NCBI GenBank assembly: GCA_030041375.1
Contig: JASHOA010000017.1
Coordinates: 62,001-126,000, forward strand
Direction: 5' to 3'
Source: Acetobacteraceae bacterium
GTDB taxonomy: Bacteria > Pseudomonadota > Alphaproteobacteria > Acetobacterales > Acetobacteraceae
DNA length: 64,000 nucleotides
The notes beneath the pieces were generated by a model, which did not search any database, had not been told where the DNA came from, and saw nothing but the letters and a program-made list of their open reading frames with translations. This document shows, in pieces, positions 8,251-63,608 of the stretch (positions are counted from its first letter, which is position 1; the number at the start of each line of letters is the position of its first letter). Both the position numbers and the translations under genes were made by a program.

Positions 8251-8588
8251 ACGCGGAAGTCCTGTTCGGCCTTGCCGGTGCGGTGCTGGCCGGGCTCGGG
8301 CTTTACGGGCTGGTGGCGGATCCGGCGCCGCTGCGCAAGCTGCTGGCGTTCAATCTGCTCGGCGGCGGCGTGTTTCTCGTGTTCGGCGTCGTCGCCCGGC
8401 GCGGTGCGGCGGCCGGCCTCGGCGGAGACCCGGTGCCGCAGGCGCTGGTGATCACCGGACTCGTGGTCGCCTTCGCGGCAACCGCGCTGGCGGTCGCGCT
8501 CTTGCGGCTGCTCTTCGAGCGGACGGGGCAAACGCTGCTCGACACTGCTGCGCAGGAGAGAACCAGCCCAGACCAGGCCGACGGATGA
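8247..8588 (+). CDS. mrpC: Mrp-type antiporter subunit C (NuoK/MnhC-like)
   Basis: 113 residues, three helices: LFGLAGAVLAGLGLYGLVAD, KLLAFNLLGGGVFLVFGVVA, then DPVPQALVITGLVVAFAATA. The DPVPQALVLT-like motif is characteristic of MnhC, the homologue of complex I NuoK. The start overlaps the previous stop by ATGA and the stop overlaps the next start in the same way. Confidence 0.93.
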   Translation: MNAEVLFGLAGAVLAGLGLYGLVADPAPLRKLLAFNLLGGGVFLVFGVVARRGAAAGLGGDPVPQALVITGLVVAFAATALAVALLRLLFERTGQTLLDTAAQERTSPDQADG

Positions 8589-10114: not shown

Positions 10115-11730
10115 GCGAGAGCCTCCTCGTCGCGGCGCCGGCGCTGCCGCTTGTGCTGGCGGTGGCGTGTCTTTGGCGCCCGCTTCGGGAATGGGCGGGG
10201 GGGCTCCTTATCCTGGCGCCCGTGCCCGCGCTGGCAGCCGCCCTGGTTGTCAGGAGAAGCTCGGTCGTCACGCTGCAGCACGGGCTGGTGCCGATCACCT
10301 TCGCCCTCGATGTTCCGGGTGCGATGCTGCTTGGGGTCTCGGCCCTGCTGTGGATTGCGGCCGGCGCTTACGCCTGCCTGCGGCGCTGCGGGCAGCCACT
10401 CGGCGGCCAGGCGGTGGTGTGCTGGCTGCTGACGCTTTGCGGCAGCGTCGGCGTTTTCATCGCCGCAGACATGGCGAGCTTCTTCATGGCCTATGCCCTG
10501 GTCAGCCTGCCGGCATGGGGCCTGGTCGTTCTCGACGACACGGAGCGGGCGCATCGGGCCGGCGCGATCTACGTGGCCTTCGCGGTGCTGGGTGAGACAC
10601 TGCTCCTGATTGGCTTTGCGCTGCTGGCAGCGGCGGGAGACAGCCTGCTCATTCGCGACGCATTGGCGGCACTGCCTCATTCACCATGGCGGGGCATGAC
10701 GCTGGCGCTTCTGATCGCGGGCTTCGGCATGAAGATCGCACTCATTCCTCTGCATGTATGGATGCCGCCGACCTATCGGGCGGCACCCATATCGGTGGCC
10801 GCGGTGCTGAGTGGTGCCGCCGTCAAAGCGGGTGTCATCGGGCTGATCCGCTTCCTGCCGCTCGGGACCGTGCTGCCTGGCGCGGGCGAGGCCCTGGCCG
10901 CAGTCGGTCTGTTTGGCGCCTTCTATGGAGTTGCGATTGGGGTGACACAGGAGCACCCGAAGACCATTCTTGCCTATTCGAGCGTGAGCCAGATGGGAGT
11001 GATCGCCGCCGTCCTCGGCATGGGGCTCGGGGCGGGAGACGGAGGCGCAGCCACCGCGGTGGCGTTCTACGGCGCCCAGCATGTGCTGGTGAAGGGTGCC
11101 CTCTTCCTTGCCGTGGGAGTCGCAGCCACCAATAGCAGGCGACAGCTCTGGCGGGTGATTGTGCCGGCGGCCGTGCTGGCGCTCGGCCTCGGCGGGCTTC
11201 CGCTCACCGGCGGCGCGCTTGCCAAGCTGGCCGTGAAGGGAGTCCTCGGCGGCGGCATTGTCGGAATGCTCGCTAACCTCTCCGCTGCTGCCAGCACGCT
11301 CCTGATGATCCATTTCGTGCATCGGCTCGCCGGATCGTCAGCGGTCGAAGACGCGGCAGGCGGACGGGAACTGGCGCTGCCCTGGCTGTTGCTGGCAGCG
11401 GCTGCGGTTGCGATTCCATGGCTCCTGTTCCCGCTCGCGACTGGCGGGTCACGCCTTGCTGCGCTTCATCCTGTTTCCATTTGGGCGTCCTTGTGGCCGG
11501 TGCTGATCGGGGCCGGGCTCGCCCTTCTGCGGCGACAATTCGAGAGACGGCTCCCGAGGTTTCCCGAGGGCGATCTCCTGGCGCTCGGCAAATACGCAAT
11601 GCCGGCTGCGATGCGGATCGGTGAAGCATCGGAGCGGCTGGAAGCGGGCTTGAGCCGATGGCCGGTTGCAAGCCTGTTGCTTCTTGCGGCGGCGTTGCTG
11701 CTTGGAGGCGGGATTCTGATCGCGCGCTAG
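10111..11730 (+). CDS. Second proton-conducting antiporter subunit (NuoL/MrpD-like)
   Basis: 539 residues of the same family as the preceding gene but divergent. The TM7 Lys (GFGMKIALIPLHVWMPPTY), the following Lys (GAAVKAGVIGLIRF), the Lys of the YGAQHVLVKGALF segment and the TM12 Lys (LPLTGGALAKLAVKG) are kept. The TM5 position where a Glu is usual reads FFMAYALVSLPAW, with no acidic residue. GTG at 10111 overlaps the mrpD stop (GTGA). It closes the operon; a long C-terminal extension includes an amphipathic stretch (RQFERRLPRFPEGDLL). It probably substitutes for the missing MrpA antiporter body. Confidence 0.88.
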   Translation: MSESLLVAAPALPLVLAVACLWRPLREWAGGLLILAPVPALAAALVVRRSSVVTLQHGLVPITFALDVPGAMLLGVSALLWIAAGAYACLRRCGQPLGGQAVVCWLLTLCGSVGVFIAADMASFFMAYALVSLPAWGLVVLDDTERAHRAGAIYVAFAVLGETLLLIGFALLAAAGDSLLIRDALAALPHSPWRGMTLALLIAGFGMKIALIPLHVWMPPTYRAAPISVAAVLSGAAVKAGVIGLIRFLPLGTVLPGAGEALAAVGLFGAFYGVAIGVTQEHPKTILAYSSVSQMGVIAAVLGMGLGAGDGGAATAVAFYGAQHVLVKGALFLAVGVAATNSRRQLWRVIVPAAVLALGLGGLPLTGGALAKLAVKGVLGGGIVGMLANLSAAASTLLMIHFVHRLAGSSAVEDAAGGRELALPWLLLAAAAVAIPWLLFPLATGGSRLAALHPVSIWASLWPVLIGAGLALLRRQFERRLPRFPEGDLLALGKYAMPAAMRIGEASERLEAGLSRWPVASLLLLAAALLLGGGILIAR

Positions 11731-30967: not shown

Positions 30968-32170
30968 TCACGGCTTCAACTCCTGCAGAACCTCAATCCC
31001 CGGTAGAACTCTCCCTTCCAGCCACTCCAGGAACGCCCCACCCGCCGTCGAGACGTAGCTCAGCCGCCCGGCAACACTTGCCACGGTCAGCGCCGCCACC
31101 GTGTCGCCCCCGCCGGCAACCGAGCAGAGGCCCCTCCCGGTCGCCGCTGCCACGGCGCGGGCAATCGCAACCGTTCCGGCCGCGAAGGGCGGCGTCTCGA
31201 ACGCGCCGAGCGGCCCGTTCCAGACCAGCGTCCTGAGTTCGCAGAGCCTCCGCTCGAAGGCGCCGACCGTCTCCGGCCCGAGATCCAGGATCATCATCTC
31301 CGCCGGCACGGCTTGGATCGGAACCACGCGCGTATCCACGCCGGCTCGGAGCTCGGCGGCCACCACCGCGTCGAGCGGCAGCAGCACCTCGCATTCCTTC
31401 GCTTTCGCTTCGGCAAGAATCGCTCTCGCCTCCGCGTGTCGCTGCGCCTCCTCGACCGAGCGGCCGACCGCGATCCCTTCGGCAGCCAGGAAGGTGTTCG
31501 CCATCGCGCCCCCGATCAGCAGGAAGTCGACCTTGCTCATCAGGTTGCCGAGAAGCTTGAGCTTGGTCGAAACCTTGACCCCGCCGACGATCGCCCCCAG
31601 CGGGTGCCTGGGATGGCCGAGCGCGGCGTCGAGCGCGGCAAGCTCCGCCTGCATCAGCCGCCCGGCGTAAGCGGGCAGGAGGTGCGCCACCCCTTCCGTG
31701 CTCGCATGCGCCCGGTGGGCCGCAGAGAAAGCGTCGTTCACGTAAAGCTCGGCAAGCCTCGCCAGCGCCCTGGCGAAGCCCGGCTCGTTCGCTTCTTCGC
31801 CCGGGTGAAAGCGCGTGTTCTCGAGCAGCAGCACCTCGCCATCCACGAGCCGCCCCGCCGTGCGCAAGGTCTCCTCACCGATGCAGTCCGGCGTGAACCG
31901 GACCGGGCGGCCGAGAGCCGCCGCGAGCGCCGGAACCAGCGGTGCGAGCGACATCTCCGGCTTCCGCTTGCCCTCCGGCCGCCCGAAATGGCTGCAGACG
32001 ATCACCCGCGCGCCTTTCCCGGCCAGCTCGCTGAGCGTGGGAACAAGCCGCTCGATCCGCGTCGCATCGGCAACCCGCCCGTCCTTGAGCGGCACATTGA
32101 GATCCGCCCGCACCAGAACGCGCCGCCCCGCCACGTTCGCCGTGTCGAGGCTGCGCACCTGAGCGCTCAC
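30968..32170 (-). CDS. pgk: Phosphoglycerate kinase
   Basis: 400 residues; ATP-linked interconversion of 1,3-bisphosphoglycerate and 3-phosphoglycerate. RRVLVRADLNVPLKDGRVAD, SHFGRPEGKRKPEMSLAP, LLENTRFHPGEEANEPGF, GGVKVSTKLKLL and GGGDTVAALT mark the family. GTG at 32170 is the start since VRSLDTANVAGRRV is the normal N-terminus. It follows gap by 10 bases in the tkt-gap-pgk operon. Confidence 0.95.
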   Translation of the reverse strand: MSAQVRSLDTANVAGRRVLVRADLNVPLKDGRVADATRIERLVPTLSELAGKGARVIVCSHFGRPEGKRKPEMSLAPLVPALAAALGRPVRFTPDCIGEETLRTAGRLVDGEVLLLENTRFHPGEEANEPGFARALARLAELYVNDAFSAAHRAHASTEGVAHLLPAYAGRLMQAELAALDAALGHPRHPLGAIVGGVKVSTKLKLLGNLMSKVDFLLIGGAMANTFLAAEGIAVGRSVEEAQRHAEARAILAEAKAKECEVLLPLDAVVAAELRAGVDTRVVPIQAVPAEMMILDLGPETVGAFERRLCELRTLVWNGPLGAFETPPFAAGTVAIARAVAAATGRGLCSVAGGGDTVAALTVASVAGRLSYVSTAGGAFLEWLEGRVLPGIEVLQELKP

Positions 32171-32180
32171 GGCGGATGGT

Positions 32181-33194
32181 TCAAAGCCGGCCCAAGAGCG
32201 CGGCGGTATCCGCCATGCGGTTGGAGAACCCCCACTCGTTGTCGTACCAGCCCATGACGCGCGCCAGCGTTCCGTCCACCACCGCGGTTTGCGTCGCATC
32301 GATGCTGCATGAAGCCGCCACGTGATTGAAATCGATGCTGACGAGCTTTTCCGTGTTGTAGGCCATGATCCCCTTCATCGGTCCGGCTGCTGCCGTCTCC
32401 ATCGCGCCGTTGACTTCGGCAACCGTCACTGTTCGGGCCAATTCCGCATCGAGCGAAACGATCGAGACATTGGGTGTCGGCACGCGGATCGCCGTGCCCT
32501 CGAGCTTGCCCTTGAGTTCCGGCAGAACGAGCCCCACCGCCCGCGCTGCGCCGGTCGTCGTCGGGATCATCGAAACCGCCGCCGCTCGCGCCCGGTGCAA
32601 ATCCTTGTGCAGCGTGTCGACCGTCCGCTGGTCACCCGTATAGGCGTGGATCGTCACCATGTAGCCGCGCTTTATTCCGAACGCCTCGTGCAGCACCTTG
32701 GCCATCGGCGCGATGCAGTTCGTGGTGCAGGAGGCGTTCGACACGATCGTCATCGACGGCTTGAGCGCCTCATCGTTCACGCCGATGACGATCGTCGCGT
32801 CCGCCCCTTCCGCGGGGGCGGAGACCAGCACCTTCCGCGCTCCTGCCGAAAGGAGCGCCGCCGCCTGCTCGCGTTTCGTGAAAAGCCCGGTGCATTCCAG
32901 GGCGACATCCACGCCGCCGAACGGAACCTTGGTCGGATCGCGTTCCGCAGAAACCCGGATCGGCCCGTAATGACGATTGCCGTAGCGGATTTGCATCGCC
33001 TGGCCGTTGACGGAGACCTCGCCCGGAAACCGGCCATGCACGCTGTCGTAACGGAAGAGATGCGCATTCGCTTCGGTGCTGCCAAGATCGTTGATCGCCA
33101 CGGGCTCGACATCCTCGCGTCCGCTCTCGACGATGGCACGCAGAACCAGCCGCCCGATCCGCCCGAAGCCATTGATCCCGAGCCTGACGGCCAT
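32181..33194 (-). CDS. gap: Glyceraldehyde-3-phosphate dehydrogenase, type I
   Basis: 337 residues. NAD-binding start VRLGINGFGRIGRLVLRA, catalytic Cys in NASCTTNCIAPMAKVLHE, and WYDNEWGFSNRMADT at the C-terminus. It lies between tkt (15-base gap) and pgk (10-base gap), a glycolysis/pentose-phosphate operon arrangement usual in alphaproteobacteria. Confidence 0.96.
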   Translation of the reverse strand: MAVRLGINGFGRIGRLVLRAIVESGREDVEPVAINDLGSTEANAHLFRYDSVHGRFPGEVSVNGQAMQIRYGNRHYGPIRVSAERDPTKVPFGGVDVALECTGLFTKREQAAALLSAGARKVLVSAPAEGADATIVIGVNDEALKPSMTIVSNASCTTNCIAPMAKVLHEAFGIKRGYMVTIHAYTGDQRTVDTLHKDLHRARAAAVSMIPTTTGAARAVGLVLPELKGKLEGTAIRVPTPNVSIVSLDAELARTVTVAEVNGAMETAAAGPMKGIMAYNTEKLVSIDFNHVAASCSIDATQTAVVDGTLARVMGWYDNEWGFSNRMADTAALLGRL

Positions 33195-33209
33195 GCCGCG
33201 CCCCCTCCC

Positions 33210-35216
33210 TCAGCCTAGCCGTTCGCGCACTTCAGCCACTACGTGCTCCGCGGTGATGCCGAAATGCTTGAACAGCACCTCTGCCGGCGCCGAGGCGCCG
33301 AAGCCGCGCATCCCGATGAAGACGCCCTCCGGCCCGAGCCAGCGTTCCCAGCCGAACCCGCCCGCCGCTTCGATGCCAACCCGCAAACCCGGCCCCAGCA
33401 CGGCATCGCGGTACGCACTCGTCTCTGCGGCGAACAATTCCCAGCACGGGAGAGAAACAACCGCCGCCCCGATTCCGGCTTTCTCGAGCGTCTCCCGGGC
33501 GGCGACTGCGATCTGAACTTCCGATCCGCTCGCCATCAGCGTCGCCCGCCGCGGAAGGCTCGCCTCGACCAGCACATAGCCGCCGTGCGCCGAGCGGTTT
33601 TCCCCAACTTCCGTCCGCAGGCCAGGCAACCCCTGGCGGGTCAGCACCAGCGCGCTCGGCCCGGAAGTGCGCGTGAGTGCCAGCTCCCAGCACTCCGCCG
33701 TCTCCACCGCGTCCGCCGGCCTGAACACGAACAGGTTCGGCATCGCCCTGAGGCTCGCCAGGTGCTCGATCGGCTGGTGGGTCGGCCCATCCTCTCCGAG
33801 CCCGATCGAATCATGCGTCAGCACGTGGATCACGCGTGCCCGCATGAGTGCTGCGATCCTGAGCGCCGGGCGCAGATAGTCGCTGAAGGTGAGGAACGTG
33901 CCGCCGTAGGGGATGATCCCGCCATGCCGCGCCATCCCGTTCATGGCCGCGGCCATGCCATGCTCGCGCACGCCGAAATGGATGTACCGCCCGCCGTAGT
34001 TCGCTGCCGTGACCGTCCCCATCCCGCCGACCTCGGTGAGGTTCGAGCCCGTCAGATCGGCCGACCCGCCGATCAGTTCCGGCACCGCCGGAACCACTTT
34101 CTCAAGCACCTTCTGGCTGGCCTGCCGCGTGGCGAGCTTCGGCCGCCCGGCCGCGAACTCCGCCTTCAGCGCCTCGAATACTGCCGGCAGGCCCTCCGGC
34201 AGCCTCGCTGCCATCACCCGTTCGAACTCGGCCCGGAGCGGATGATGCGCGAGTCTGCGCAGCCACGCTCTTCTCGCCGCCGCGCCGCGCGCTCCCACCC
34301 CGCGCCATTCCGCCGCGATCTCTTCCGGCACGCTGAACGGCGCAGCGCTCCATCCCAGGGCGGCTTTGGTGGCTGCCGCTTCCTCAGCGCCGAGAGGGCT
34401 GCCATGTGCTGCCGCGGTGCCCGCCTTGTGCGGCGCACCGAAGCCGATCACGGTCCGGCAGGCGATCAGAGTCGGCTTTCGCGATCGCCCGGCAGAGGAA
34501 AGCGCTGCGGCAACCGCCGCCGCATCAAGCCCATCCACCCGCTTCGCCGACCACCCCAGCGCCGCGAACCGCTTCAGAACATCGTCCGAATAGGCAAGCC
34601 GTGTCGGCCCGTCGATCGAGATCGCATTGTCGTCGTAGAGAACCGTCAACCGCTCAAGCCTGAGATGGCCGGCGAGTGCCGCCGCTTCGTGGCTGATGCC
34701 CTCCATCAGGTCGCCGTCCGAGGCGATCACGAAGGTGCGGTGATCGACCAGGCTCTTGCCGAATCGCGCCGCCAGCATTCGCTCGGCGAGCGCCATGCCG
34801 ACCGCAGCGCCGAGCCCCTGCCCGAGCGGCCCGGTTGTCGTCTCGATCGCCGGGTGAAGCTCCGTCTCCGGGTGTCCGGCCGCTGCCGAATCGAGCTGGC
34901 GGAAGCGCCGCAGCACCTCGGTCTCCATCCCGGCGAAGCCGGTCAGGTGCAAGAGCGCGTAGAGCAGCATCGAGCCGTGCCCCGCCGACAGCACGAACCG
35001 ATCACGGTCCGGCCAGCGCGCATCGGCCGCATCGAATTTCAGGAACCGCGTCCACAGCACGGTCGCCGCGTCGGCCATGCCGAGCGGCAACCCCGGGTGC
35101 CCGGACTTCGCCGCTTCGACGGCGTCGATCGCCAGCGCCCTCACGGCATTCGCAAGGCGCCGGTCGCGCCCCGGCGGATGCGCCGCTCTCTCTTTCTCTG
35201 CTGCCGCTGCCACCAT
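33210..35216 (-). CDS. tkt: Transketolase
   Basis: 668 residues, thiamine-diphosphate enzyme of the pentose phosphate or Calvin cycle. DAVEAAKSGHPGLPLGMADA at the N-terminus, the ThDP motif ASDGDLMEGISHEAAALAGH with YDDNAISIDG, and THDSIGLGEDGPTHQPIEHL in the second domain. The ATG at 35216 has AAGGAG seven bases upstream. No RuBisCO or phosphoribulokinase gene is in the window. Confidence 0.96.
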   Translation of the reverse strand: MVAAAAEKERAAHPPGRDRRLANAVRALAIDAVEAAKSGHPGLPLGMADAATVLWTRFLKFDAADARWPDRDRFVLSAGHGSMLLYALLHLTGFAGMETEVLRRFRQLDSAAAGHPETELHPAIETTTGPLGQGLGAAVGMALAERMLAARFGKSLVDHRTFVIASDGDLMEGISHEAAALAGHLRLERLTVLYDDNAISIDGPTRLAYSDDVLKRFAALGWSAKRVDGLDAAAVAAALSSAGRSRKPTLIACRTVIGFGAPHKAGTAAAHGSPLGAEEAAATKAALGWSAAPFSVPEEIAAEWRGVGARGAAARRAWLRRLAHHPLRAEFERVMAARLPEGLPAVFEALKAEFAAGRPKLATRQASQKVLEKVVPAVPELIGGSADLTGSNLTEVGGMGTVTAANYGGRYIHFGVREHGMAAAMNGMARHGGIIPYGGTFLTFSDYLRPALRIAALMRARVIHVLTHDSIGLGEDGPTHQPIEHLASLRAMPNLFVFRPADAVETAECWELALTRTSGPSALVLTRQGLPGLRTEVGENRSAHGGYVLVEASLPRRATLMASGSEVQIAVAARETLEKAGIGAAVVSLPCWELFAAETSAYRDAVLGPGLRVGIEAAGGFGWERWLGPEGVFIGMRGFGASAPAEVLFKHFGITAEHVVAEVRERLG

Positions 35217-35284
35217 GTGCTCGCTCCTTGCCGCGCCTTTAACCGCGCACCCATCGGGCGGCAACCCCCAGAGCCGTAGCGCCG

Positions 35285-36202
35285 TCAGAGAGTGCCAGCG
35301 GGCTCGGTCTCGTGGAAGCGGCGATAGTCGAGCACCGTCAGCCCGTCGGGCCCGGTTCCCAGCATATCGGCAAACCGGCGATCCCAGAGAATTTCTTCGG
35401 GACCATACGAAGCCCGGGCGTGCACCGTTTGCGACACGCTCTCGTCGAGCCCGACCACCGTCGCCACCAGTTCCGCTCCGTCTTCCTCCAGGCTTTGCCG
35501 TGTCGCGCCGAACAGCGGGCTCGATTCGTCGATCACGTGCATCACGCTGAAGGTCAGCGCAAACACCGGCGTGCGCTGGCGCAGCAGCTTGAGATCATGG
35601 AAGCGCCGCATCCAGGCGCCCTCCGCGGAGCGCTCCCAGCGTAACAGCGAGAGATTGGCTTCAGCCTGGAGGATCTGGTTGTGCCGCTCGTTGGCCAGCC
35701 GGATCGTCAGAGTCGGCCGGCCGTTGTGGACGTTCACCACCGCGCTCCGGCTGAACAGAACCCGCGCCGTCGGACGCGAAAAGCGGGCGAACAGCAACCC
35801 GGAGGCAATCGCCAGGAGGCCGAGCCCCACCATCGTCTCGAGGGTGACCAGGAGGTTCACATAGAGGCTGGCCGGGGACATGCCGCCGTAACCGATCGTG
35901 GCAATCGTCTGCACACTGAAGAAGAACGCATCCGCGAGGCTGCCTGGATGCGCGCCGGCAATCCCGCGGAGATCCAGCGAGTAGAGACCGGCGAACACCA
36001 GGTTCACCGCCAGGTAAACGGCCAGGCCAGTCAGTGCGAAGCGCGGCCATGAGATCGTCAGTGCCCGGTGGTAGAGATCGCGCCCCCACCGCCGCGGCAG
36101 GCCGACGCGCACGACCCGGTCGCTCCGCCCCCTGCTGATCAGCCGCGAGTGGCGGAGCTGATCGGAGGGAGCTGACGCGAAACGAATCTCCGGCTTCTCC
36201 AT
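35285..36202 (-). CDS. Inward-rectifier potassium channel (KirBac type)
   Basis: 305 residues. Slide helix and M1 (PRFALTGLAVYLAVNLVFAG), selectivity filter TIATIGYGG, M2 (VTLETMVGLGLLAIASGLLF then ARFSRPTARVLFS), and a cytoplasmic immunoglobulin-like domain (RPTLTIRLANERHNQILQAE). GAGG six bases before the ATG. Lies upstream of tkt on the same strand with a 68-base gap. Confidence 0.94.
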   Translation of the reverse strand: MEKPEIRFASAPSDQLRHSRLISRGRSDRVVRVGLPRRWGRDLYHRALTISWPRFALTGLAVYLAVNLVFAGLYSLDLRGIAGAHPGSLADAFFFSVQTIATIGYGGMSPASLYVNLLVTLETMVGLGLLAIASGLLFARFSRPTARVLFSRSAVVNVHNGRPTLTIRLANERHNQILQAEANLSLLRWERSAEGAWMRRFHDLKLLRQRTPVFALTFSVMHVIDESSPLFGATRQSLEEDGAELVATVVGLDESVSQTVHARASYGPEEILWDRRFADMLGTGPDGLTVLDYRRFHETEPAGTL

Positions 36203-36699: not shown

Positions 36700-36726
36700 G
36701 GACCTGGAGGGTCTTACCTCAGGTCC
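36700..36726 (-). terminator. Terminator of the CoA-transferase operon
   Basis: ggacctg (36700-36706) pairs with caggtcc (36720-36726), with further AGG/CCT pairing inside. On the minus strand it follows the CaiB-family stop and is followed by GCCTTTTCG. Confidence 0.6.
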
Positions 36727-37961
36727 TACTTCCGCCGCGCCGCCGGCAACGCTCCCTGTTCACGTAACGCCGCAAGCTCGGCCTCTTTTAACCCGTGCTC
36801 GGCCAGCACCTCCGTCGTGTGCTCGCCGAACCCCGGCGGCGGCCGGCGCGTTCCGCCCGGTGTGCGGGAAAGCTTGATCGGCGTGCCGAGCCCCCGGTAG
36901 GCGCCGAGCGCCGTCACCATCCCGCGCTCCGCCGTCTGCGGTGCCGCTGTCGCCTCGTCCACCCCCAGCACCGGGCCGACCGGCAGTCCGGCCCGGATCA
37001 GCCGCTCGGACAGCGCATACCCGTCCTGTTCTGCGAACGCCGCCGCCAGCGCGGCCGAAAGCGCCGCCCGGTTCTGAACCCGCGCCGCATTGCCCTGGAA
37101 ACGCGCATCGGCGGCAAGCTCCGGCCGGCCGATCTCGCGGGTCAGTCTCGAGAATTGCCCGTCATTGCCGATGCCGACGAAAATCTCGCAGGTGCGCGTC
37201 GGGAACTTGTCGTACGGCGCGATATTCGGATGCGCATTGCCGAGCGGGGCCGGCCTTCGCCCGCTCAGGAAGAAGTTGGCCGCCTGCGGATGCAAGAGCG
37301 CCATGCCGCAATCATAGAGCGTCATGTCGAGAAATTGCCCACGCCCCGATTGCGCGCGCTCGAAAAGCGCCATCAGGATGCCGACCGCCGAAAAGAGCCC
37401 CGTCGCCAGATCGACTATTGGCGTGCCGAGCCGGAGCGGCCCCGTCGTCGGATCGCCGTTCACGCTCATCAGCCCGGTCATCGCCTGCAATATCGCGTCG
37501 TAACCAGGCATCCCGCCAAGCGGCCCCGTGGCCCCGAAGCCCGAGATGCGGCAATGCACCAGGCGCGGAAAGCGCGGCGCAAGATCGGCCTCGTAGCCGA
37601 GCCCCCAGCGTTCCATCGCCCCCGGCTTGAAATTCTCGATCAGCACGTCCGCACCTTCGAGCAGCGCCAGCAGCACCGCCCGGCCTTCCGGCTTGCCGAG
37701 ATCGAGCGCGACCGAGCGCTTGTTGCGGTTGACGCCGATGAAATAGCTCGCCGTGCGCTCGCCCCCGTCCTCTCTGAACGGGGGACCCCAGTCGCGCGTC
37801 TCATCGCCCTGCGGCGGTTCGAGCTTGATCACGTCGGCGCCGTGATCGGCCAGGATCATGGTGCAGAACGGCCCGCCCAGCACGCGCGAAAGGTCGATCA
37901 CCTTGAGGCCGGCAAGCGCGCCGGCGGAGGCCGCCACACCGGCCGCGGCGGTTCCCTCCAT
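36726..37961 (-). CDS. CaiB/BaiF family CoA-transferase (class III)
   Basis: 411 residues. LKVIDLSRVLGGPFCTMILA with ADHGADVIKLEPPQGDETRD, NRNKRSVALDLGKPEGRAVL, and MPGYDAILQAMTGLMSVNGD (containing the likely catalytic Asp) are classic. The start overlaps the stop of the preceding CoA-transferase beta gene (ATGA), so it belongs to that operon. The acid substrate is unknown; family members move CoA between organic acids. Confidence 0.94.
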   Translation of the reverse strand: MEGTAAAGVAASAGALAGLKVIDLSRVLGGPFCTMILADHGADVIKLEPPQGDETRDWGPPFREDGGERTASYFIGVNRNKRSVALDLGKPEGRAVLLALLEGADVLIENFKPGAMERWGLGYEADLAPRFPRLVHCRISGFGATGPLGGMPGYDAILQAMTGLMSVNGDPTTGPLRLGTPIVDLATGLFSAVGILMALFERAQSGRGQFLDMTLYDCGMALLHPQAANFFLSGRRPAPLGNAHPNIAPYDKFPTRTCEIFVGIGNDGQFSRLTREIGRPELAADARFQGNAARVQNRAALSAALAAAFAEQDGYALSERLIRAGLPVGPVLGVDEATAAPQTAERGMVTALGAYRGLGTPIKLSRTPGGTRRPPPGFGEHTTEVLAEHGLKEAELAALREQGALPAARRK

Positions 37962-38722
37962 CAGGCGCTCCTCGCCATTTCCGCTGCCGGCCAGATGCGT
38001 TGCACGAAAGTCGGGTAAGTCGGCGCCATTGCCGCCGCGACCGGTCCCCGTAAAAGGTGAAGCCATTCGGGCACCGGGTCGGCTGTCTCCGCCAGCGGCT
38101 GCGCCATGTCGTAATCGAATCCCGTCGCCGCCCGTACGCTTTCCGCACTCTCGCCGGGATGCACCGAAACCAGCCTGAAGCGCGCCTGCTCCGGCGAGAA
38201 CGAAAACACCGCCTTGCCGGTCACCAGCGCTTCCCCATGGCCGCGGCGAAACACACCCGCAGGCGATGTGCCCGGCGCGGAGATATAGGCCACCCGCGGA
38301 ACCAGGACCCGGCGCGAATGCTCGAACCGATAAAGAATGACGCGTGGCACCATCATGTACATGAAGGCCGAGCCAAAGCTGCCTGGAAACCGGGCCACCC
38401 TGCCCGGCCACTCGCCGACGCCGACCAGGTTGAGGTTCCCCGCCCCGTCGATCTCGCCGCCGCCGAGAAAGAACAGGTCGATCCGCCCTTCCGCGGTCAG
38501 ATCGAACAGCTCGCCGGTGCCGTTCGTGAACGGATTGCCGCGCCGCTGGTTGAGCACCGATACGCGGACCTCGCCAGTGATCTCGCGCGCCAGATACGAA
38601 GCGGCGGCCGGAATCGGGCTGGCGGCGCCGATCGCCACATGCCGTGCCGGCCTCTTCCCGGGGTCGAGGATCAGCCGCGTGATGGCGCCGATCAGCCGCT
38701 CCTCGGGCAGAGCGTCTCTCAT
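37961..38722 (-). CDS. Class I CoA-transferase beta-like subunit (glutaconate/IpdB type)
   Basis: 253 residues. PEERLIGAITRLILDPGKRP, FFLGGGEIDGAGNLNLVGVG and VSVHPGESAESVRAATGFDY fit the CoA-transferase beta family. The region where glutaconate CoA-transferases carry an E-S-G catalytic Glu reads SVLNQRRGNPF, with no obvious Glu, so a hydrolase-like IpdAB relationship is possible. Overlaps its alpha partner by four bases and the CaiB gene by one codon. Confidence 0.85.
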   Translation of the reverse strand: MRDALPEERLIGAITRLILDPGKRPARHVAIGAASPIPAAASYLAREITGEVRVSVLNQRRGNPFTNGTGELFDLTAEGRIDLFFLGGGEIDGAGNLNLVGVGEWPGRVARFPGSFGSAFMYMMVPRVILYRFEHSRRVLVPRVAYISAPGTSPAGVFRRGHGEALVTGKAVFSFSPEQARFRLVSVHPGESAESVRAATGFDYDMAQPLAETADPVPEWLHLLRGPVAAAMAPTYPTFVQRIWPAAEMARSA

Positions 38723-39540
38723 TCCGCAGCCGCGGCCGTCACTCTCAGCACATAGCGCGCGAGATAAGCACGGAATCCTTCCTCGCTCCGCGCCAGCCGC
38801 GCGTATTCGAGGAAATGCACGGCATCGTCGGGATATTCGTCGAGCAACCCACCCGGCCAGGCGCCGCGCTCCGCCACCGCCACCGCTTCGATATAGACGC
38901 CGCTGATCACCCCCGGCGCCATCCGCTCGTCATCGATCAGGTTCCCCTCGACGATCCGCTCCACAGTCACCAGTGTCCGCTTCGCCGCGTGCGCCATCGA
39001 TGCAAGCTCATGATGCCGCCCGACCCAGACATTGCCTTGCCTGTCCGCCGCCGCTGCATGGAAAACGGCGAAATCGGGCGCCAGCGCCGGCAGCAGCAAA
39101 ATCGGATCGCCCTCTTGAAACGGATTGTCGATCACCCGCCAGTCCGGCCGATGTTTGAGAACATCGCTGCCCAGGATGCCGCGGATCGGGATGAAGGGAA
39201 TACCTCTGCCGGCCGCCTCCAGCATCGCATGCATGGTAGGGCAGGTGGCATCCAGCATCCGGATTTGCCCTGCCTTGACGGCACGCGTGAAGCAGGGAGC
39301 CAGTCCTGCCTCGTCGAGCGTCACCGCGCTCGATTGCACCTCGGCCACGCACCCCGCGCCGATCAGGAGGTCCGTCGCATAGCCGGAGACCGGCACGCCG
39401 ACGAGCCTCAGCCCCCGCGCACCCTGACGGACCAGCGCCCGGGCAAAGGCAGCACAGGTCGCCGAATTGTCCGGCGGGATCGCAACCATCGCCCCGGCCG
39501 GGATCTCCGCTGCTAGCCGGTCGAGTTCGAGGATGCGCAT
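38719..39540 (-). CDS. Class I CoA-transferase alpha-like subunit
   Basis: 273 residues. LVRQGARGLRLVGVPVSGYA, ATCPTMHAMLEAAGRGIPFI, PIRGILGSDVLKHRPDW and AADRQGNVWVGRHHE match CoA-transferase alpha subunits. The ATG at 39540 begins the family-like MRILELDRLAAEIPAGAMV. First gene of the leftward operon; divergent from the glutamine-synthetase-like gene over a 124-base control region. Confidence 0.88.
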   Translation of the reverse strand: MRILELDRLAAEIPAGAMVAIPPDNSATCAAFARALVRQGARGLRLVGVPVSGYATDLLIGAGCVAEVQSSAVTLDEAGLAPCFTRAVKAGQIRMLDATCPTMHAMLEAAGRGIPFIPIRGILGSDVLKHRPDWRVIDNPFQEGDPILLLPALAPDFAVFHAAAADRQGNVWVGRHHELASMAHAAKRTLVTVERIVEGNLIDDERMAPGVISGVYIEAVAVAERGAWPGGLLDEYPDDAVHFLEYARLARSEEGFRAYLARYVLRVTAAAAE

Positions 39541-39664
39541 CGGATGTCCCCAGGCTGGCCTCCTTCGTTCTACTCCCGCTCTTCGCCGCCCGGCCATCCC
39601 CTCTCTCTCGCCATCCCGTGCATTCTCTCCGATGATGCCGCCCTGCCGCGACGGAGGCCTTTTC

Positions 39665-40927
39665 ATGCAGCGCGACGATCTGGTGTTCGCCGGCTATTGC
39701 GACTGGGCCGGCCTCGTCCGCGGCAAAGCCTTCCCGGCCGCCGACATCGCCGCCCGCCTCAAGCGCGGCGTCGGCCTCACCCACTCGAACATCATGATGT
39801 CCTGCTTCGGCCCCATCATGACCACCCCGTTCGGCACCACCGGCGATCTCATCGCCCGCCCCGACCCCGCCGCCCACGTTGCCGTTCCCTTCGACGACGG
39901 CACGGCCGAGCGCTTCTATCTCAGCGATCTTCAGAACACCGACGGCAGCCCCTGGGAGTGCTGCCCCCGCGATTTCCTCAGGCGCGCCATCACCGCGCTC
40001 TCCGCCTTCGGCCTCACCCTGCATGTGAGTTTCGAGCAGGAGTTCGTCTATACCGGCATCGAGGATCGGCCCGGCTCGACCTACGCGCTCGACGCCTTCC
40101 GCCGCCAGGACGTATTCGGCGAGGCGCTGACCGGGGCGTTCAGCGCCGCCGGTCTCGGGCCGGACAGCTTTCTTCCCGAATACGGCCGCCGTCAGTTCGA
40201 GGTCACGATCGCGGCCGAGCCCGCCCTGCGCGCCGCCGACCGCGCAGTCATCGCCCGCGAACTGCTGCGCGGTGTCGCCTTCCGCCTCGGCCATCGCGCC
40301 ATCCTTGCTCCGATGCTCGAAGAGGGCGGCGTCGGCAACGGCACGCACATCCACATGAGCCTCTGGGAAGGCGAAACGCCGATCACTTACGATCCGGCCC
40401 GGCCCTACGGCGTCAGCGCGCGTGCCGCGCCCTTCTTCGCCGGCGTTCTCGAGCACATGCCGGCGATCACCGCCTTCTCCGCCCCAAGCGTTGCCTCTTA
40501 TTACCGCCTCACCCCCGGCCGCTGGGCCCCCGTGACGGCCAATCTCGCCGTCCAGGACCGTGGCGCCGCGTTTCGCGTCTCCCCGATCTTCGCCACCGCC
40601 GAAGAGCCCGCGGCCCGGCAGTTCAATCTCGAATTCCGTGTCGCCGACGCTGCCTGCTGTCCCTATCTCGCGCTCGGCGCGCTGATCCAGGCCGGCGTGG
40701 ACGGGCTCACCCGCAATCTCGCCCTTCCCGCCCCGGATGCGCCCGCTGCCTTGCTGCCGCGCACCCTGCAAGAGGCATTGGCCGCTCTCGAGGCCGACAA
40801 GGCGACGGCCCGCTGGTGGAGTGCCACCGCCATGCACGCCTATCTCGCCTTCAAGTCGGCCGAGGTCGCTTCCCTCGCCGATCTTTCCCCGAGCGACATC
40901 TGCGCCCGCTATGCGGCGGTATACTGA
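39665..40927 (+). CDS. Glutamine synthetase-like ligase
   Basis: 420 residues. Catalytic-domain motifs: SFEQEFVYTG (metal Glu), GVGNGTHIHMSLWEG, ASYYRLTPGRWAP and LEFRVADAACCPYLALGALI. The usual GPGQFE segment reads EYGRRQFEVTI. CGGAGG lies eight bases before the ATG at 39665. Such proteins join glutamate or related acids to ammonia or an amine, for example gamma-glutamylpolyamine synthesis. First of three overlapping or adjacent plus-strand genes. Confidence 0.9.
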   Translation: MQRDDLVFAGYCDWAGLVRGKAFPAADIAARLKRGVGLTHSNIMMSCFGPIMTTPFGTTGDLIARPDPAAHVAVPFDDGTAERFYLSDLQNTDGSPWECCPRDFLRRAITALSAFGLTLHVSFEQEFVYTGIEDRPGSTYALDAFRRQDVFGEALTGAFSAAGLGPDSFLPEYGRRQFEVTIAAEPALRAADRAVIARELLRGVAFRLGHRAILAPMLEEGGVGNGTHIHMSLWEGETPITYDPARPYGVSARAAPFFAGVLEHMPAITAFSAPSVASYYRLTPGRWAPVTANLAVQDRGAAFRVSPIFATAEEPAARQFNLEFRVADAACCPYLALGALIQAGVDGLTRNLALPAPDAPAALLPRTLQEALAALEADKATARWWSATAMHAYLAFKSAEVASLADLSPSDICARYAAVY

Positions 40928-40934
40928 GCCTCCG

Positions 40935-41717
40935 ATGGCCCCTCTGCCGCTGCTCGCCCCCGACGAGCCCCATCCCGTCTCGCTCCGCCTCCCGCATGGC
41001 CGGAGCGCGTTCCTGCTCACTGCCGATCACGCCGGGCGCCTGATCCCGCGCGCGCTCGCTACACTCGGCCTGCCGCCGCCAGAGCGCACCCGCCATGTCG
41101 CCTGGGACATCGGGATCGCTGGCGCCACGCGGCTTCTCTCCGCCTCGCTCGACGCAACCGCGGTGCTGCAGCGCTACTCGCGCCTGGTGATCGACTGCAA
41201 TCGCCCGCCCGAGGTGCCGAGCGCCTTCCCCGAGATCAGCGACGGAACGAAGGTGCCCGCCAATGCTTCGCTTTCGGCGGCCGAGAAGGAACGCCGCCGC
41301 CGAGCCATCTTCGACCCCTATCACGCCGCGATCGCCGCAGTAATCGCAAGCCGCCGCGCCGCCGGCCATCCGACGCTCTATGCTGCCATGCACAGCTTCA
41401 CGCCGGTGTTTGACGGCGAGGCGCGAAAAATGCACTGCGCGGTGCTCTACAACCGCAATCCGCGCCTTTCCCTCGCCCTTGCCCGACTCCTCCGCGCCGA
41501 GGGCGATCTCATCGTCGCCGAAAACGCCCCTTACCGCCTCACCGATGCCACCGATTACGGTGTGCCGGTGCATGCCGAAGCCGCCGGGCTCGATTATCTC
41601 GAGATCGAAATCCGCCAGGACCTGATCTCCCGCCCCGCCGGCCAAGCCGCCTGGGCCGAGCGTCTCGCGCGGCTGCTTCCGGCCGCGGCACGCCAGATTG
41701 CCGAGGAGTGCCCATGA
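40935..41717 (+). CDS. N-formylglutamate amidohydrolase-like protein
   Basis: 260 residues. FLLTADHAGRLIPRALATLG, HVAWDIGIAGATRLLSASLD, YSRLVIDCNRPPEVPSAFPE and YAAMHSFTPVFDGEARKMHC match the N-formylglutamate amidohydrolase family, a metal-dependent amidase. It starts seven bases after the ligase stop and ends in an ATGA overlap with the next gene. Confidence 0.9.
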   Translation: MAPLPLLAPDEPHPVSLRLPHGRSAFLLTADHAGRLIPRALATLGLPPPERTRHVAWDIGIAGATRLLSASLDATAVLQRYSRLVIDCNRPPEVPSAFPEISDGTKVPANASLSAAEKERRRRAIFDPYHAAIAAVIASRRAAGHPTLYAAMHSFTPVFDGEARKMHCAVLYNRNPRLSLALARLLRAEGDLIVAENAPYRLTDATDYGVPVHAEAAGLDYLEIEIRQDLISRPAGQAAWAERLARLLPAAARQIAEECP

Positions 41718-42364
41718 AGGATTTCGGCCTCACCCGCGACGTTCCGCTCCAAAAAGGACAAACGGCGCTTCTCTTCATCGACGTGCAGAAATACTCCGCC
41801 CCCGGCGGCGGCGCCTATGCGCATCTTCCGCCCGCCGAGGTCGAAGCGACCTATGCTTATTTCTTCCGCGAAATGCAGGAACGCGCAGTCCCGAACATGC
41901 AGCGTCTGCAGCGCGCCGCCCGCGCCGCCAGCGTCGAGGTCATGTACACCGTCATCGAAAGCCTGACCCAGGACGGCCGCGATCTCAGCCTCGACTACAA
42001 AATCTCGCGCCTCTTCTGCCCCAAGGGTTCCCACGACGCGGAAGTTCTGGACGAGATCGCGCCCACCGGCGACGAAATCCTGATTCCCAAAACCTCCTCC
42101 TCCGTGTTCGTCTCCACGCACATCCACTACGTGCTCGGCAATCTGGGCGTGAAATACCTGATCCTCGCCGGCATCCTCACCGATCAATGCGTCGATTCGG
42201 CGGTGCGCGACGCCTGCGATCTCGGCTATCTCGTCACCCTCGCAACGGACGCCTGCGCGACGCTCTCGGCGGAACGCCAGCGAAGCGCACTCGCCAACAA
42301 TCGCGGCTATTGCCGCCAGCTCGCAACCGAAGCGATCGTCGCTGAACTGGCGGCCTTCGCATAG
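41714..42364 (+). CDS. Isochorismatase-family cysteine hydrolase
   Basis: 216 residues. The Asp-Lys-Cys triad is seen: TALLFIDVQKYSAP (Asp), ILIPKTSSSVFVST (Lys) and LAGILTDQCVDSAVRDACDL (Cys). This is the amidase/N-carbamoyl hydrolase type rather than a true isochorismatase. ATG at 41714 with GAGGAG five bases upstream; overlaps the amidohydrolase stop by four bases. Confidence 0.92.
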   Translation: MKDFGLTRDVPLQKGQTALLFIDVQKYSAPGGGAYAHLPPAEVEATYAYFFREMQERAVPNMQRLQRAARAASVEVMYTVIESLTQDGRDLSLDYKISRLFCPKGSHDAEVLDEIAPTGDEILIPKTSSSVFVSTHIHYVLGNLGVKYLILAGILTDQCVDSAVRDACDLGYLVTLATDACATLSAERQRSALANNRGYCRQLATEAIVAELAAFA

Positions 42365-42400: not shown

Positions 42401-42868
42401 CTAGTCGGTGCGGCTGATCCGTCCGGTCTCCGTGTTGATCGCGAAGCGGGCGACGACATCGCCATGGGCCGTGACGAAGGCGAAGCTCACGGTGTGGTCG
42501 GCATTCGGTGTTACGTCATCGACCTTCCATTGATGCTGGCCGTGGCGCAGCAGGATCGCCTCGCCGATGATCTTCACGTCGTCCGGCGTGAGGGCAAGAT
42601 CGGCCGGGCGGTGAAAGAGGCCCCAGGCGCGGAGCCGATGGAACAAGGCCTCGCGCATTTCGCCGCCGCGCATCCAGCCACGCTGCCCGGGACCACGCGC
42701 ATTGCCATGCATCCACATCGGCATGCCGGGCATCGGCATCGCCGCGCCGGGAGGAGGAGGCGCGGGCGGGCTGGCCGCGGTCTGAGCCGAGGCCAGGGAC
42801 GAGAGGGTGAGCGCGCCCGCCGCGGCAACAGATGCGGCAGCGAGGGCAGCAAGGGTGAGCTTACGCAT
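42401..42868 (-). CDS. Small exported protein divergent from a two-component system
   Basis: 155 residues. Signal peptide MRKLTLAALAAASVAAAGA with cleavage near ASA, then a Pro/Met-rich spacer (PGAAMPMPGMPMWMHGNARG) and a globular end (ALTPDDVKIIGEAILLRHGQ, VVARFAINTETGRISRTD) that recalls PepSY-like domains. The Met/His-rich segment suggests metal contact. It is divergent from the response regulator with candidate binding repeats between them, so it is a likely regulon member. Confidence 0.75.
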   Translation of the reverse strand: MRKLTLAALAAASVAAAGALTLSSLASAQTAASPPAPPPPGAAMPMPGMPMWMHGNARGPGQRGWMRGGEMREALFHRLRAWGLFHRPADLALTPDDVKIIGEAILLRHGQHQWKVDDVTPNADHTVSFAFVTAHGDVVARFAINTETGRISRTD

Positions 42869-59973: not shown

Positions 59974-62004
59974 TCAGTTTGCGGCTTCGGGAGCGAAACG
60001 TACCAGCTCGGCACCCTCTTCGACCATTTCTCCAATGCCGAATGGAAGTTCGCTGACGCTGCCGGCGCGCGGCGCGCTGAGGGTGAGTTCCATCTTCATC
60101 GCCTCGAGCACGATCAGGGCTGCGCCTTTCTCGACGGCATCGCCTGTCTTGACGAGGATACGTGTGATACGCCCCGGGATCGGCGCGATGAGACGCTCCG
60201 CCCCGGCCGCGTGGCCGGCGGGTGGCGCAAGCGGATCGAGGCGGGTGAGCACCTCGTTCTTCTTGCCGCGGCGTATGACGACGAGATCCATGCCGCGACG
60301 AACGACACGAAGATGATGCTCTACGCGATCGAGACGGAGTGCCATCCCGGCTTCATCTTCGCGCGCCGTCGCGTGCACGCTCTCGGAGGCGAAGACGAGG
60401 CGCCAGGAGCCATCGGGGCCGGCGTAAGCGCGGAGCGGAACTTTCTCGCCGTCCCAGGAGAGCAGAAAATCCTGGAAGCCCGCGCCATTCATCCGCCAGG
60501 CATCGGCGATGGCCCAGGGCGAAAAGGGATCCGCCCTCCTTTCGGCCGCAGCCGCGGCCTCGCTTTCAGTGTCCCGGAGCACGGCGAGCACTGCTGCGGC
60601 AAGGATGAGGCGCTGCTCGGCGGGGGGCACAAGCGCCGGTTCAGGCGGCAACAGCGCATCCTTGTGCCGCGCGATGAACCCGGTATCCAGGCCGCCGGCT
60701 GCGAATTCGGGATGGGCCAGGATCGCCCCGAGGAGTCCGAGATTCGTCTCGACGCCGACGATTTCCCACTTGGCGAGAGCAGACTGCAAACGGCTGAGCG
60801 CGGCCGGGCGGTCCTCGCCCCAGGCGATCAGCTTGGCGATCATCGGGTCGTATTCGGAACCGATCGCATCGCCCTCGCGCACACCGCTATCCACTCGGAG
60901 CGCGAGGTTTTGCCGCGGCATCCTGAGATGCACGAGGTGGCCGACCGAAGGCAGGAACTCACGCCCCGGATCCTCGGCATAGATTCGCGCCTCGATCGCA
61001 TGCCCATGGATTGAGAGCCCCGTGGCGGCTTGCGGGAGCTTCTCGCCGGAAGCGACGAGAATCTGCCATTCGACGAGGTCCTGACCAGTGATCATCTCGG
61101 TCACCGCATGCTCGACCTGCAGGCGGGTGTTCATTTCCATGAAATAGAAATCGCTGCCGGCGACGAGAAACTCGACGGTTCCGGCGCCGACATAACCGAC
61201 CGCACGGCCGGCGGCGATGGCCGCCGCCGCCATCGCCGCGCGCAGTGACGGATCGAGGTCCGGCGCCGGTGCCTCCTCGATGATCTTCTGATAGCGGCGC
61301 TGGATCGAGCAGTCGCGCTCGAACAGAGAGACAACGTTGCCGTGCATGTCGGCGAAGAGCTGGATTTCGACGTGCCGGGGTCGGGCCAGGTATTTTTCGA
61401 GCAGGAGGTGGCCCGAGCCGAACGCGGAGCGCGCCTCGCGCGCGGCGGAGGAGAGCGCGGCCTCGAGATCTTCGGACCTCTCCACGATGCGCATCCCCCG
61501 CCCGCCGCCGCCAGCCGACGCCTTGATGAGCACCGGGTAGCCGATATTCCCTGCGGCGGCGGCAAGCGAGGGAAAATCCTGTGCCGCACCGTGATAGCCG
61601 GGCAGCAGGGGGACATCGGCCTTCTCCATCAGCGCCTTCGCCTCCGCCTTCGAGCCCATGCGGCGGATGGCAGCCGGCGGAGGGCCGATGAAGACGATGC
61701 CGGCCGATGCCGAGGCCTCGGCGAAATCGGCATTTTCCGACAGAAATCCGTAGCCGGGATGAATGGCCTCGGCGCCGGCGCGGCGCCCCGCATCGATGAT
61801 CCTCTCTATTGAGAGATAGCTTTCGCGGGCAGGAGGCGGGCCGATCGGCCAAGCCTCGTCGGCGAGTGCGACGTGGGCAGCGTTGCGATCGGCCTCGGAA
61901 TAGACGGCTGCCGTTGCGATGCCGAGCCGCCGGGCGGTTTTGATCACGCGGCAGGCGATCTCGCCCCGGTTCGCGATCAGGATCTTGCGGAACATCCTCT
62001 TCAC
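59974..62004 (-). CDS. mccA: Biotin-carrying subunit of acyl-CoA (methylcrotonyl-CoA) carboxylase
   Basis: 676 residues. Biotin carboxylase: [40 protein letters not shown]-grasp [16 protein letters not shown] and [20 protein letters not shown]. The C-terminal biotinyl domain has VLEAMKMEL. Start is GTG at 62004 (GTGA overlap with the upstream stop) or ATG at 61995. Methylcrotonyl specificity is inferred from the adjacent isovaleryl-CoA dehydrogenase. Confidence 0.93.
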
Positions 62005-63608
62005 ATCCGGAACAGGCCGAAGCGGGTCGGTTCGATCGGTGCATTCAGGCTTGCCGAGATGGCGAGCCCGAGCACGCGGCGGGTGTCTGCCGGATCGATC
62101 ACGCCGTCGTCCCAGAGCCGCGCCGTGGCGTAGAACGGGTGGCCCTGCGCTTCGTACTGGGCGCGGATCGGCGCCTTGAACGCCTCTTCCTCATCGGCTG
62201 GCCAGTCCGTGCCGCGGGCGGCGAGCGCTTCGCGGCGAACCTCGGCGAGTACCGATGCCGCCTGCTCGCCTCCCATGACGCTGATCCGCGCGTTCGGCCA
62301 CATCCAGAGGAAGCGCGGCGAGTAGCCGCGGCCGCACATGGCGTAATTGCCGGCGCCGAAGCTGCCGCCAATGATGACCGTGAATTTCGGCACGGCCGCA
62401 CAGGCGACGGCCGTCACCATTTTTGCGCCGTGCTTGGCGATGCCGCCTTGCTCGTATTTGCGGCCGACCATGAAACCCGTGATGTTCTGCAGAAACACCA
62501 GGGGAATCCCGCGCTGCGCCGCAAGCTCGATGAAGTGCGCACCCTTCTCGGCGCTTTCCGAAAAAAGGATGCCGTTGTTGGCGATGATGCCGACCGGATA
62601 GCCGAAGATGTGCGCGAATCCCGTGACCAGGGTCGGTCCGTAGAGGCGCTTGAACTCCTCGAAGAGGCTCGCGTCGACGATCCGGGCGATGACCTCGCGC
62701 GCATCAAAGGGCCGGCGCAGATCAACTGGCACGACACCGCCGATTTCCGCCGGATCGTAACGCGGGGGGCTTGGCTCCCTGAGCACGAGCGGAACCCGCT
62801 TGACGCGGTTGAGGCCGGCCACGATCCCGCGGGCGATACCGAGCGCGTGCAAATCATTCTCGGCCAAATGATCGGCCACGCCCGAGATGCGGGTATGCAG
62901 ATCCGCCCCGCCAAGTTCTTCGGCAGTCACGACTTCGCCGGTTGCCGCCTTGACGAGGGGCGGACCGCCGAGAAAGATCGTGCCCTGGTTCCGCACGATG
63001 ATGGCTTCGTCCGACATCGCCGGCACGTAGGCGCCGCCGGCGGTGCAGGACCCCATGACCAGTGCAATCTGCGGGATTCCGGCCGCCGACATCCGCGCCT
63101 GATTGTAGAAGATGCGGCCGAAATGCTCCCGATCCGGGAAGACTTCGTCCTGGTTCGGCAGATTGGCGCCACCGGAATCGACGAGATAGAGGCAGGGAAG
63201 GTGGTTCTCGGCGGCGATCTCCTGCGCGCGCAGGTGCTTCTTCACGGTGATCGGGAAGTAGGTCCCGCCCTTCACCGTGGCGTCATTGGCGATCACCATG
63301 CACTCGCGGCCGGCGATTCTGCCGATGCCGGTAATGATGCCGGCGGACGGGACCTCGCCGCCATACATGCTGTGCGCCGCAAGCTGGCCGATTTCGAGGA
63401 AAGGCGAGAGCGGGTCGATCAGGGCGCGGATGCGATCGCGTGGCAGGAGCTTTCCGCGCTTGATGTGGCGTTCGCGTGCGGCAGCACCGCCACCCTCGCG
63501 CACCCGTTCTGCGAGAGCGCGAAGCTCGGCCACCAGCGCCTGCATCGCTTCGGCATTGGCGCGGAATTCGCGGCTGCGCGGATCCAGCGCGGATTCGATC
63601 ACCGGCAT
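62001..63608 (-). CDS. mccB: Methylcrotonyl-CoA carboxylase carboxyltransferase subunit
   Basis: 535 residues. [40 protein letters not shown] (SGGANLPxQ is typical of methylcrotonyl-CoA subunits), [20 protein letters not shown] and [20 protein letters not shown]. The nine-base gap to the acyl-CoA dehydrogenase gene and overlap with the biotin subunit indicate one operon. Confidence 0.95.

Follow-up and report, generated by a model that had tools for sequence, protein, structure and literature searches.

Two head-to-head gene sets in an Acetobacteraceae genome are probably separate metabolic modules

At positions 36726-42364 of a 64,000-nucleotide stretch of DNA from an Acetobacteraceae bacterium (the window; contig JASHOA010000017.1), six genes form two tight, divergent operons. 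One operon encodes a CaiB/BaiF enzyme and two subunits, A and B, that resemble class I CoA-transferases. The other encodes a ligase related to glutamine synthetase (GS), a hydrolase of family PF05013, and an isochorismatase-family cysteine hydrolase. The closest described relatives of the A/B pair share a fold and differ in chemistry. In glutaconate CoA-transferase (GCT), Glu54 of the beta subunit forms an anhydride, while IpdAB has Gly at that place and transferred no CoA in the tests of the same paper (PMC5380842). AibB, a decarboxylase, carries Cys56 at this place (PMC7756340). IpdAB and AibAB show that loss of this Glu can mark a different chemistry. In class III CoA-transferases, PMC9196870 describes the catalytic Asp as strictly conserved. 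For the second operon, the closest described ligase is PA5508 (PauA7, PDB 4hpp). PA5508 is reported to prefer bulky amines (PMC6478659) and has been placed beside the GoaS branch (PMC11335346). The PF05013 protein SCO1615 of Streptomyces coelicolor is predicted, but not proven, to split gamma-glutamylglycine (PMC6529630).

We think it probable (roughly two chances in three) that the two operons are independent metabolic modules that lie head to head, and that the A/B pair performs a chemistry other than CoA transfer. The observations behind this are gene order, conserved residues, predicted fold, separate distribution, and an adjacency that is limited to one genus. A sequence-only reading of this DNA had joined both operons into one pathway. 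It described the genes correctly: gene calls and Pfam matches confirm all six, their order, and the 124-base gap, and the Asp-Lys-Cys triad that it reported in the cysteine hydrolase is present. Its single pathway is probably wrong. The features are as follows (bits are scores against the named Pfam family; pLDDT is the predicted local distance difference test score).

36726-37961, minus strand: CaiB/BaiF (class III) CoA-transferase, 411 aa; PF02515, 405.8 bits; predicted nucleophile D155 in GYDAI
37961-38722, minus strand: B subunit with predicted GCT fold, L57 at the place of the catalytic Glu; PF01144, 35.3 bits; model pLDDT 82
38719-39540, minus strand: A subunit with predicted GCT fold, invariant D-x-T-C-P-x-x-H; PF01144, 47.5 bits; model pLDDT 85
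39541-39664, no strand: intergenic region of exactly 124 bases, between A and the GS-like gene
39665-40927, plus strand: GS-like ligase, putatively a gamma-glutamyl-amine ligase of the PA5508 kind, 420 aa; PF00120, 211.8 bits; best PDB match 4hpp
40935-41717, plus strand: PF05013 (FGase) hydrolase, 260 aa; 154.1 bits; not HutG by NCBIfam
41714-42364, plus strand: isochorismatase-family cysteine hydrolase, 216 aa; PF00857, 108.2 bits; triad D23/K126/C159

CaiB and B overlap by 1 base, B and A by 4 bases, and the two hydrolase genes by 4 bases; a 7-base gap separates the GS-like gene from the PF05013 gene, which has an alternative in-frame ATG at 40911. The Pfam scores are well beyond the cut-offs for CaiB, GS, PF05013, and PF00857; those of A and B are weaker, yet above the 23-bit cut-off. 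None of the six products reached the cut-off of a curated NCBIfam model. A GS-like protein that is 97% identical to the window's is encoded in another Acetobacteraceae record, from a metagenome-assembled genome (JASHOF010000028.1).

Fold and catalytic residues of the CoA operon

The best PDB matches of the predicted structures are AibA, GCT, and IpdA for subunit A and AibB, GCT, and IpdB for subunit B. Foldseek gave a probability of 1.00 to 1poi (GCT), 5mzw, and 6co6 for both models, so both subunits are predicted to have the class I fold. The Glu54 of the GCT beta subunit is absent. At this place B has L57, and among 24 homologues the residue is Leu in 22 and Gln in 2. L57 aligned to the Glu in the FEGG motif of a GctB-like paralogue from the same genome in two MAFFT modes; the placement combines this sequence alignment with the end of predicted strand 53-56. 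The GctB-like protein is the only paralogue behind it, because ScoB from the same genome aligned badly at this position, and phmmer and profile alignments to PDB chains stop short of it. (Window B is also 21 residues shorter than the GctB-like paralogue before the LFD helix.) As a side observation, a second GCT-like pair in the window's genome (G000, contig C3, 117720-119265; L126 and L127) keeps FEGG and lies beside what looks by eye like a luciferase-like oxidoreductase.

Subunit A has the invariant motif DxTCPxxH, with C100 conserved in 23 of 23 homologues. In alignment, C100 falls on Glu105 of IpdA, the position at which 6co6 and the E105A chain 6coj differ; we take this Glu to be the catalytic residue of IpdA. 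Because it is not retained, we rejected IpdAB-like steroid ring cleavage. The pair resembles the 3-methylglutaconyl-CoA decarboxylase AibAB and the ring hydrolase IpdAB in predicted fold, in its top structural matches, and in lacking the Glu of B, but it has Leu where AibB has Cys56 and IpdB has Gly57, and Cys100 where IpdA has Glu105. Also, unlike AibAB and IpdAB, it is accompanied by a CaiB gene in every locus we examined. In CaiB, the residue that we presume from its motif to be the catalytic Asp, D155, is present in 25 of 25 homologues; CaiB scores below the NCBIfam equivalog cut-offs.

The description of A and B as a class I CoA-transferase pair thus holds for the fold and fails for the catalytic Glu. 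CoA activation by this pair, as originally proposed, is unlikely because that Glu is missing; the nucleophile of a CoA-transferase is kept in CaiB only. Given these conserved residues, CaiB is the best candidate for CoA transfer, and A/B would act on a CoA ester in some other way. By analogy with AibAB and IpdAB, the pair probably performs another reaction on a CoA ester. More speculatively, it might be a new enzyme class within the GCT fold, in which the Cys of A (in DxTCPxxH) replaces the Glu of B and cleaves or decarboxylates the CoA ester made by CaiB; we consider this specific proposal rather unlikely.

AibAB decarboxylates the product of methylcrotonyl-CoA carboxylase. Genes for a biotin carboxylase (with the methylcrotonyl-CoA carboxylase BT domain) and carboxyltransferase subunits lie at 59974-63608 of the window. 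They are about 20 kb from the CoA operon, and we set leucine catabolism aside. Biotin carboxylase and carrier genes are found near A in a few other loci (c11 and c19); by eye, these look like genes for acetyl-CoA carboxylase.

A, B, and CaiB form a set of their own. A and CaiB occur together in 24 of 24 loci, with B called between them in 22. (B escaped the simple gene caller used here in two loci, the window and L103, where other gene calls show it; L098 has an extra called open reading frame.) The A-B-CaiB triple is also kept in all six annotated plasmid regions, one of which is among the 24 loci, and no GS gene is listed within about 9 kb in any of the six. Four of these regions, from Rhodobacterales, add a 2-hydroxyacid dehydrogenase, a class II aldolase, an FGGY kinase, an acetolactate-synthase-like enzyme, and a molybdopterin oxidoreductase, along with an IclR regulator and an ABC importer. 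This row of genes was not seen in the other two plasmid regions.

The ligase and its two hydrolases

The GS-like protein matches PA5508 (4hpp) over residues 11-420 at 262.6 bits (E = 5e-77), and the next PDB sequence scores 108.4 bits. It is thus nearer to PA5508 than to glutamine synthetases over almost its full length, including the C-terminal stretch, and we class it as a PA5508-type ligase. The flap Glu of ammonia-using GS, which we take to be E327, is absent: 49 of 50 aligned homologues have Trp at its place (W287). PA5508 has Trp there too; of the aligned GS chains, 8oow and 8ool have Glu, 5dm3 has Phe, and 8wwu has Leu. Against the NCBIfam model for gamma-glutamylputrescine synthetase, the window's protein scores 216.6 bits, below the cut-off of 650.

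Both hydrolases have the conserved residues of their families but fall far below the cut-offs for the described equivalogs. In the PF05013 protein, H32, D58, R83, D87, N89, R90, H153, E225, and R227 are all present in 21 of 21 homologues, and the score against hutG (TIGR02017) is 35 bits (cut-off 278.75), so by NCBIfam this is not HutG. The triad of the cysteine hydrolase is kept among 37 aligned homologues of at least 38% identity (D23 in 36, K126 and C159 in all 37), with scores of 67.3 bits against RutB (cut-off 377.95) and 59.6 bits against biuret hydrolase (cut-off 370). Since all of these scores are under curated cut-offs, we rejected assignments to pyrimidine (RutB), biuret, HutG, and putrescine. 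Histamine catabolism was dropped as a template as well. A literature search with the name of the histamine catabolism operon returned no paper, and the cluster described in PMC2542419 has a transporter, an aldehyde dehydrogenase, and an aminotransferase, with no GS.

The ligase recurs with these hydrolases. Among 53 GS loci, a cysteine hydrolase (at least 35% identity) lies within 2.5 kb of GS in 36, and both hydrolases are nearby in 16. If we consider the 37 loci with at least 2.5 kb on either side of GS, then the cysteine hydrolase is present in 29 and the PF05013 protein in 14. On plasmids of other Alphaproteobacteria found with GS, both hydrolases are present in 9 of 10 annotated regions (drawn from 54 matched records; the plasmid gene tables are incomplete). 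An RpiR-type regulator is listed in seven of the ten, and an eighth has its GS match inside a SIS-domain protein. Seven have a class III or "aspartate family" aminotransferase, and eight have a branched-chain-type ABC importer. On a Terrarubrum flagellatum plasmid (L140, 7020-9281), the GS match ends one long SIS-domain gene, which is apparently a fusion of an RpiR-type regulator and a ligase. One Klebsiella plasmid, retrieved through its cysteine hydrolase, also has an RpiR regulator, PF05013, a GS-family gene, an APC permease, and a class III aminotransferase. Otherwise, the neighbors of the set vary between loci. Overall, the GS-like ligase forms a recurring set with the cysteine hydrolase, which PF05013 joins less often. 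The part of the earlier proposal that grouped a ligase with C-N hydrolases for a gamma-glutamylation-type process stands, as they recur together and the ligase is a relative of PA5508; its continuation into the CoA genes is not supported. Gamma-glutamylation of an amine followed by amide hydrolysis is suggested by the best match to PA5508, by the PA5508/GoaS literature, and by the prediction in PMC6529630.

Distribution of the two halves and origin of their adjacency

In a sample of 150 genomes from the family (A matched at E = 1e-40 and GS at E = 1e-70), A is present in 59 genomes and GS in 35. Both are present in 16, where 13.8 would be expected by chance (P = 0.25, Fisher exact test). Most genomes with A (43 of 59) have no GS match, and 19 of the 35 with GS have no A. 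Six of the 35 match GS at just 41-44% identity and may represent another subgroup. Within the 16 genomes that have both, the two are adjacent in two (G000 and G002) and, except for G015, on different contigs in the rest. In the class sample, adjacency occurs in the window's own genome only, and among the 53 GS loci, A lies within 2.5 kb in just 4, all from the window's genus. These results argue against the idea that the CoA genes continue the ligase's pathway: the halves co-occur in the family about as often as chance predicts, and the outcome that the earlier reading had named as its refutation, independent occurrence in nearly all relatives, is largely what we see. A limited literature search with combined terms, mostly outside subscription papers, found no paper that contained all of them.

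The sequence-only reading also had the operons share a control region. A promoter scan of 39400-39800 found no sigma-70-like site, and the gap between A and GS varies in three genus mates (67, 132, and 190 bases, depending on the starts chosen). We noticed two short elements after viewing an alignment of the intergenic regions: TTCTACTCC at 39568-39576 on the CoA side and TTCTCTCCGATGATG at 39623-39637 on the GS side. The first is complete (9 of 9 bases) in the window and in a sister species (G001), and 8 of its 9 bases match in L015 and in two further loci that are not from the genus. The second is present in four of five genus loci. In G001, where the halves are apart, each half retains its own element (9 of 9 bases on the CoA side, 14 of 15 on the GS side). 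Each element travels with its own half, and for this reason we rejected a shared operator within the 124 bases.

G001 carries GS and A on different contigs, each with 97% identity to its counterpart in the window. Homology to the window breaks off at 39541 for the CoA half and at 39599 for the GS half. A second, 99% identical copy of the outermost 200 bases of the CoA-side contig is found elsewhere in G001. By eye we guessed that these bases are the end of an IS630-type transposase, but their 60-codon frame has no Pfam match. Another clue is a gene of the dienelactone-hydrolase (DLH) family. In 8 of the 19 loci from outside the genus, it is found upstream of A, at most two genes away. In the genus mates L015 and L020, its homologue adjoins the cysteine hydrolase or is one open reading frame beyond it; therefore, the ligase trio sits between the DLH gene and A. 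The genus copies are 56-75% identical to copies outside the genus, and PF01738 was found in the two genus copies tested. No DLH-family gene was found at E = 1e-30 in the window's genome, in G001, or in the 77%-complete genome G003. To judge from these gene positions, the halves most likely became neighbors when, in an ancestor of the genus, the ligase trio was inserted between the CoA operon and a DLH-family gene.

As for the surroundings, a 155-aa protein with no Pfam match at 1e-5 is encoded beside the cysteine hydrolase (42401-42868). Near the CoA operon are an inward-rectifier potassium channel gene (35285-36202; IRK_C and Ion_trans_2) and, named by eye, genes for phosphoglycerate kinase, glyceraldehyde-3-phosphate dehydrogenase, and transketolase in a row (30968-35264). 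These three also flank the CoA operon in L020. A cation-proton antiporter cluster of the Mrp/MBH type is at 6269-11730.

Possible functions and what the locus means

If there are two modules, then on the plus strand the PA5508-type ligase would join glutamate to an amine via a gamma-amide. The two hydrolases would cut C-N bonds, most likely freeing glutamate from a processed gamma-glutamyl amide, so that the amine might be used as a source of nitrogen or carbon. On the minus strand, CaiB would convert a carboxylic acid to its CoA thioester via Asp155. This thioester, or a CoA ester further along, would be the substrate of the A/B pair, which would hydrolyze it, cleave a C-C bond, or decarboxylate it, perhaps via Cys100 of A.

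Several observations weigh against parts of this reading. In the class sample, A is present in 48 of 289 genomes, GS in 23, and both in 10, where 3.8 would be expected (P = 0.0014, uncorrected for genome size and relatedness), which suggests some tie between the halves. In four of the five genomes from the genus, the adjacency is retained, with GS identity as low as 76%, so linkage might be advantageous. In G015, one contig carries both A and a distant GS (41% identity), separated by about 13 kb. In most other genomes that contain the two halves, these lie on different contigs of draft assemblies, and the G001 contigs end near the break. Within the ligase set, just 19 of the 53 GS loci have a PF05013 protein (at least 30% identity) inside the 2.5-kb limit, and 14 have neither hydrolase there, some due to contig ends. 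Finally, B has an invariant Glu, E71, which could be a relocated nucleophile.

The class-level excess and the head-to-head order in the genus are what favor a single pathway, in which an amine is gamma-glutamylated, C-N bonds are hydrolyzed, and the resulting acid is activated by the divergent CoA operon. This seems very improbable to us. The family excess is not significant, the halves are apart in the closest sister, and the annotated plasmid regions of either half list no genes of the other. Also, among the family and class genomes outside the genus that hold both, none has them adjacent (with draft contigs, no single case is decisive). We find it quite improbable, too, that A/B is an ordinary class I CoA-transferase with a moved nucleophile, so that with CaiB there would be two CoA-transferases for two acids. 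The fold, the operon context, and E71 are consistent with this, but E71 aligns with Asp90 of AibB, where the next helix begins, rather than just behind the nucleophile strand, and the aligned catalytic place is Leu or Gln in every homologue. Furthermore, FEGG and SENG motifs are present in the genome's two other PF01144 pairs, window A scores 34.4 bits against its one matching NCBIfam model (cut-off 128.5), and none of 19 B proteins matches any NCBIfam model. Another possibility, which we hold to be unlikely though less so, is that the trio serves to scavenge nitrogen from one defined amine or to detoxify it. The gamma-glutamyl amide hydrolase would then be the PF05013 protein, as is predicted for ethanolamine use in Streptomyces by GlnA4 and SCO1615. 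PF05013 lies beside GS-like genes in both, and the SCO1615 prediction points this way. However, the dehydrogenases of the Streptomyces route are not beside the window's trio, the window has an isochorismatase-type hydrolase, the role of SCO1615 is itself a prediction, and the cysteine hydrolase is a commoner partner of GS than PF05013 is (36 vs. 19 of 53).

We therefore prefer two independent modules, and this locus illustrates that two neatly divergent operons do not have to make up a single pathway. The ligase-hydrolase trio would be a small form of a recurring amine module that is also found on plasmids of rhizobia, roseobacters, and Klebsiella. The A/B pair without the Glu is the more interesting part of the locus, and worth following. 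A is common (59 of 150 genomes in the family, 48 of 289 in the class), and on the plasmids we examined, A and B carry the plain annotation of CoA transferases, even though the defining residue of that reaction is missing from the pair.

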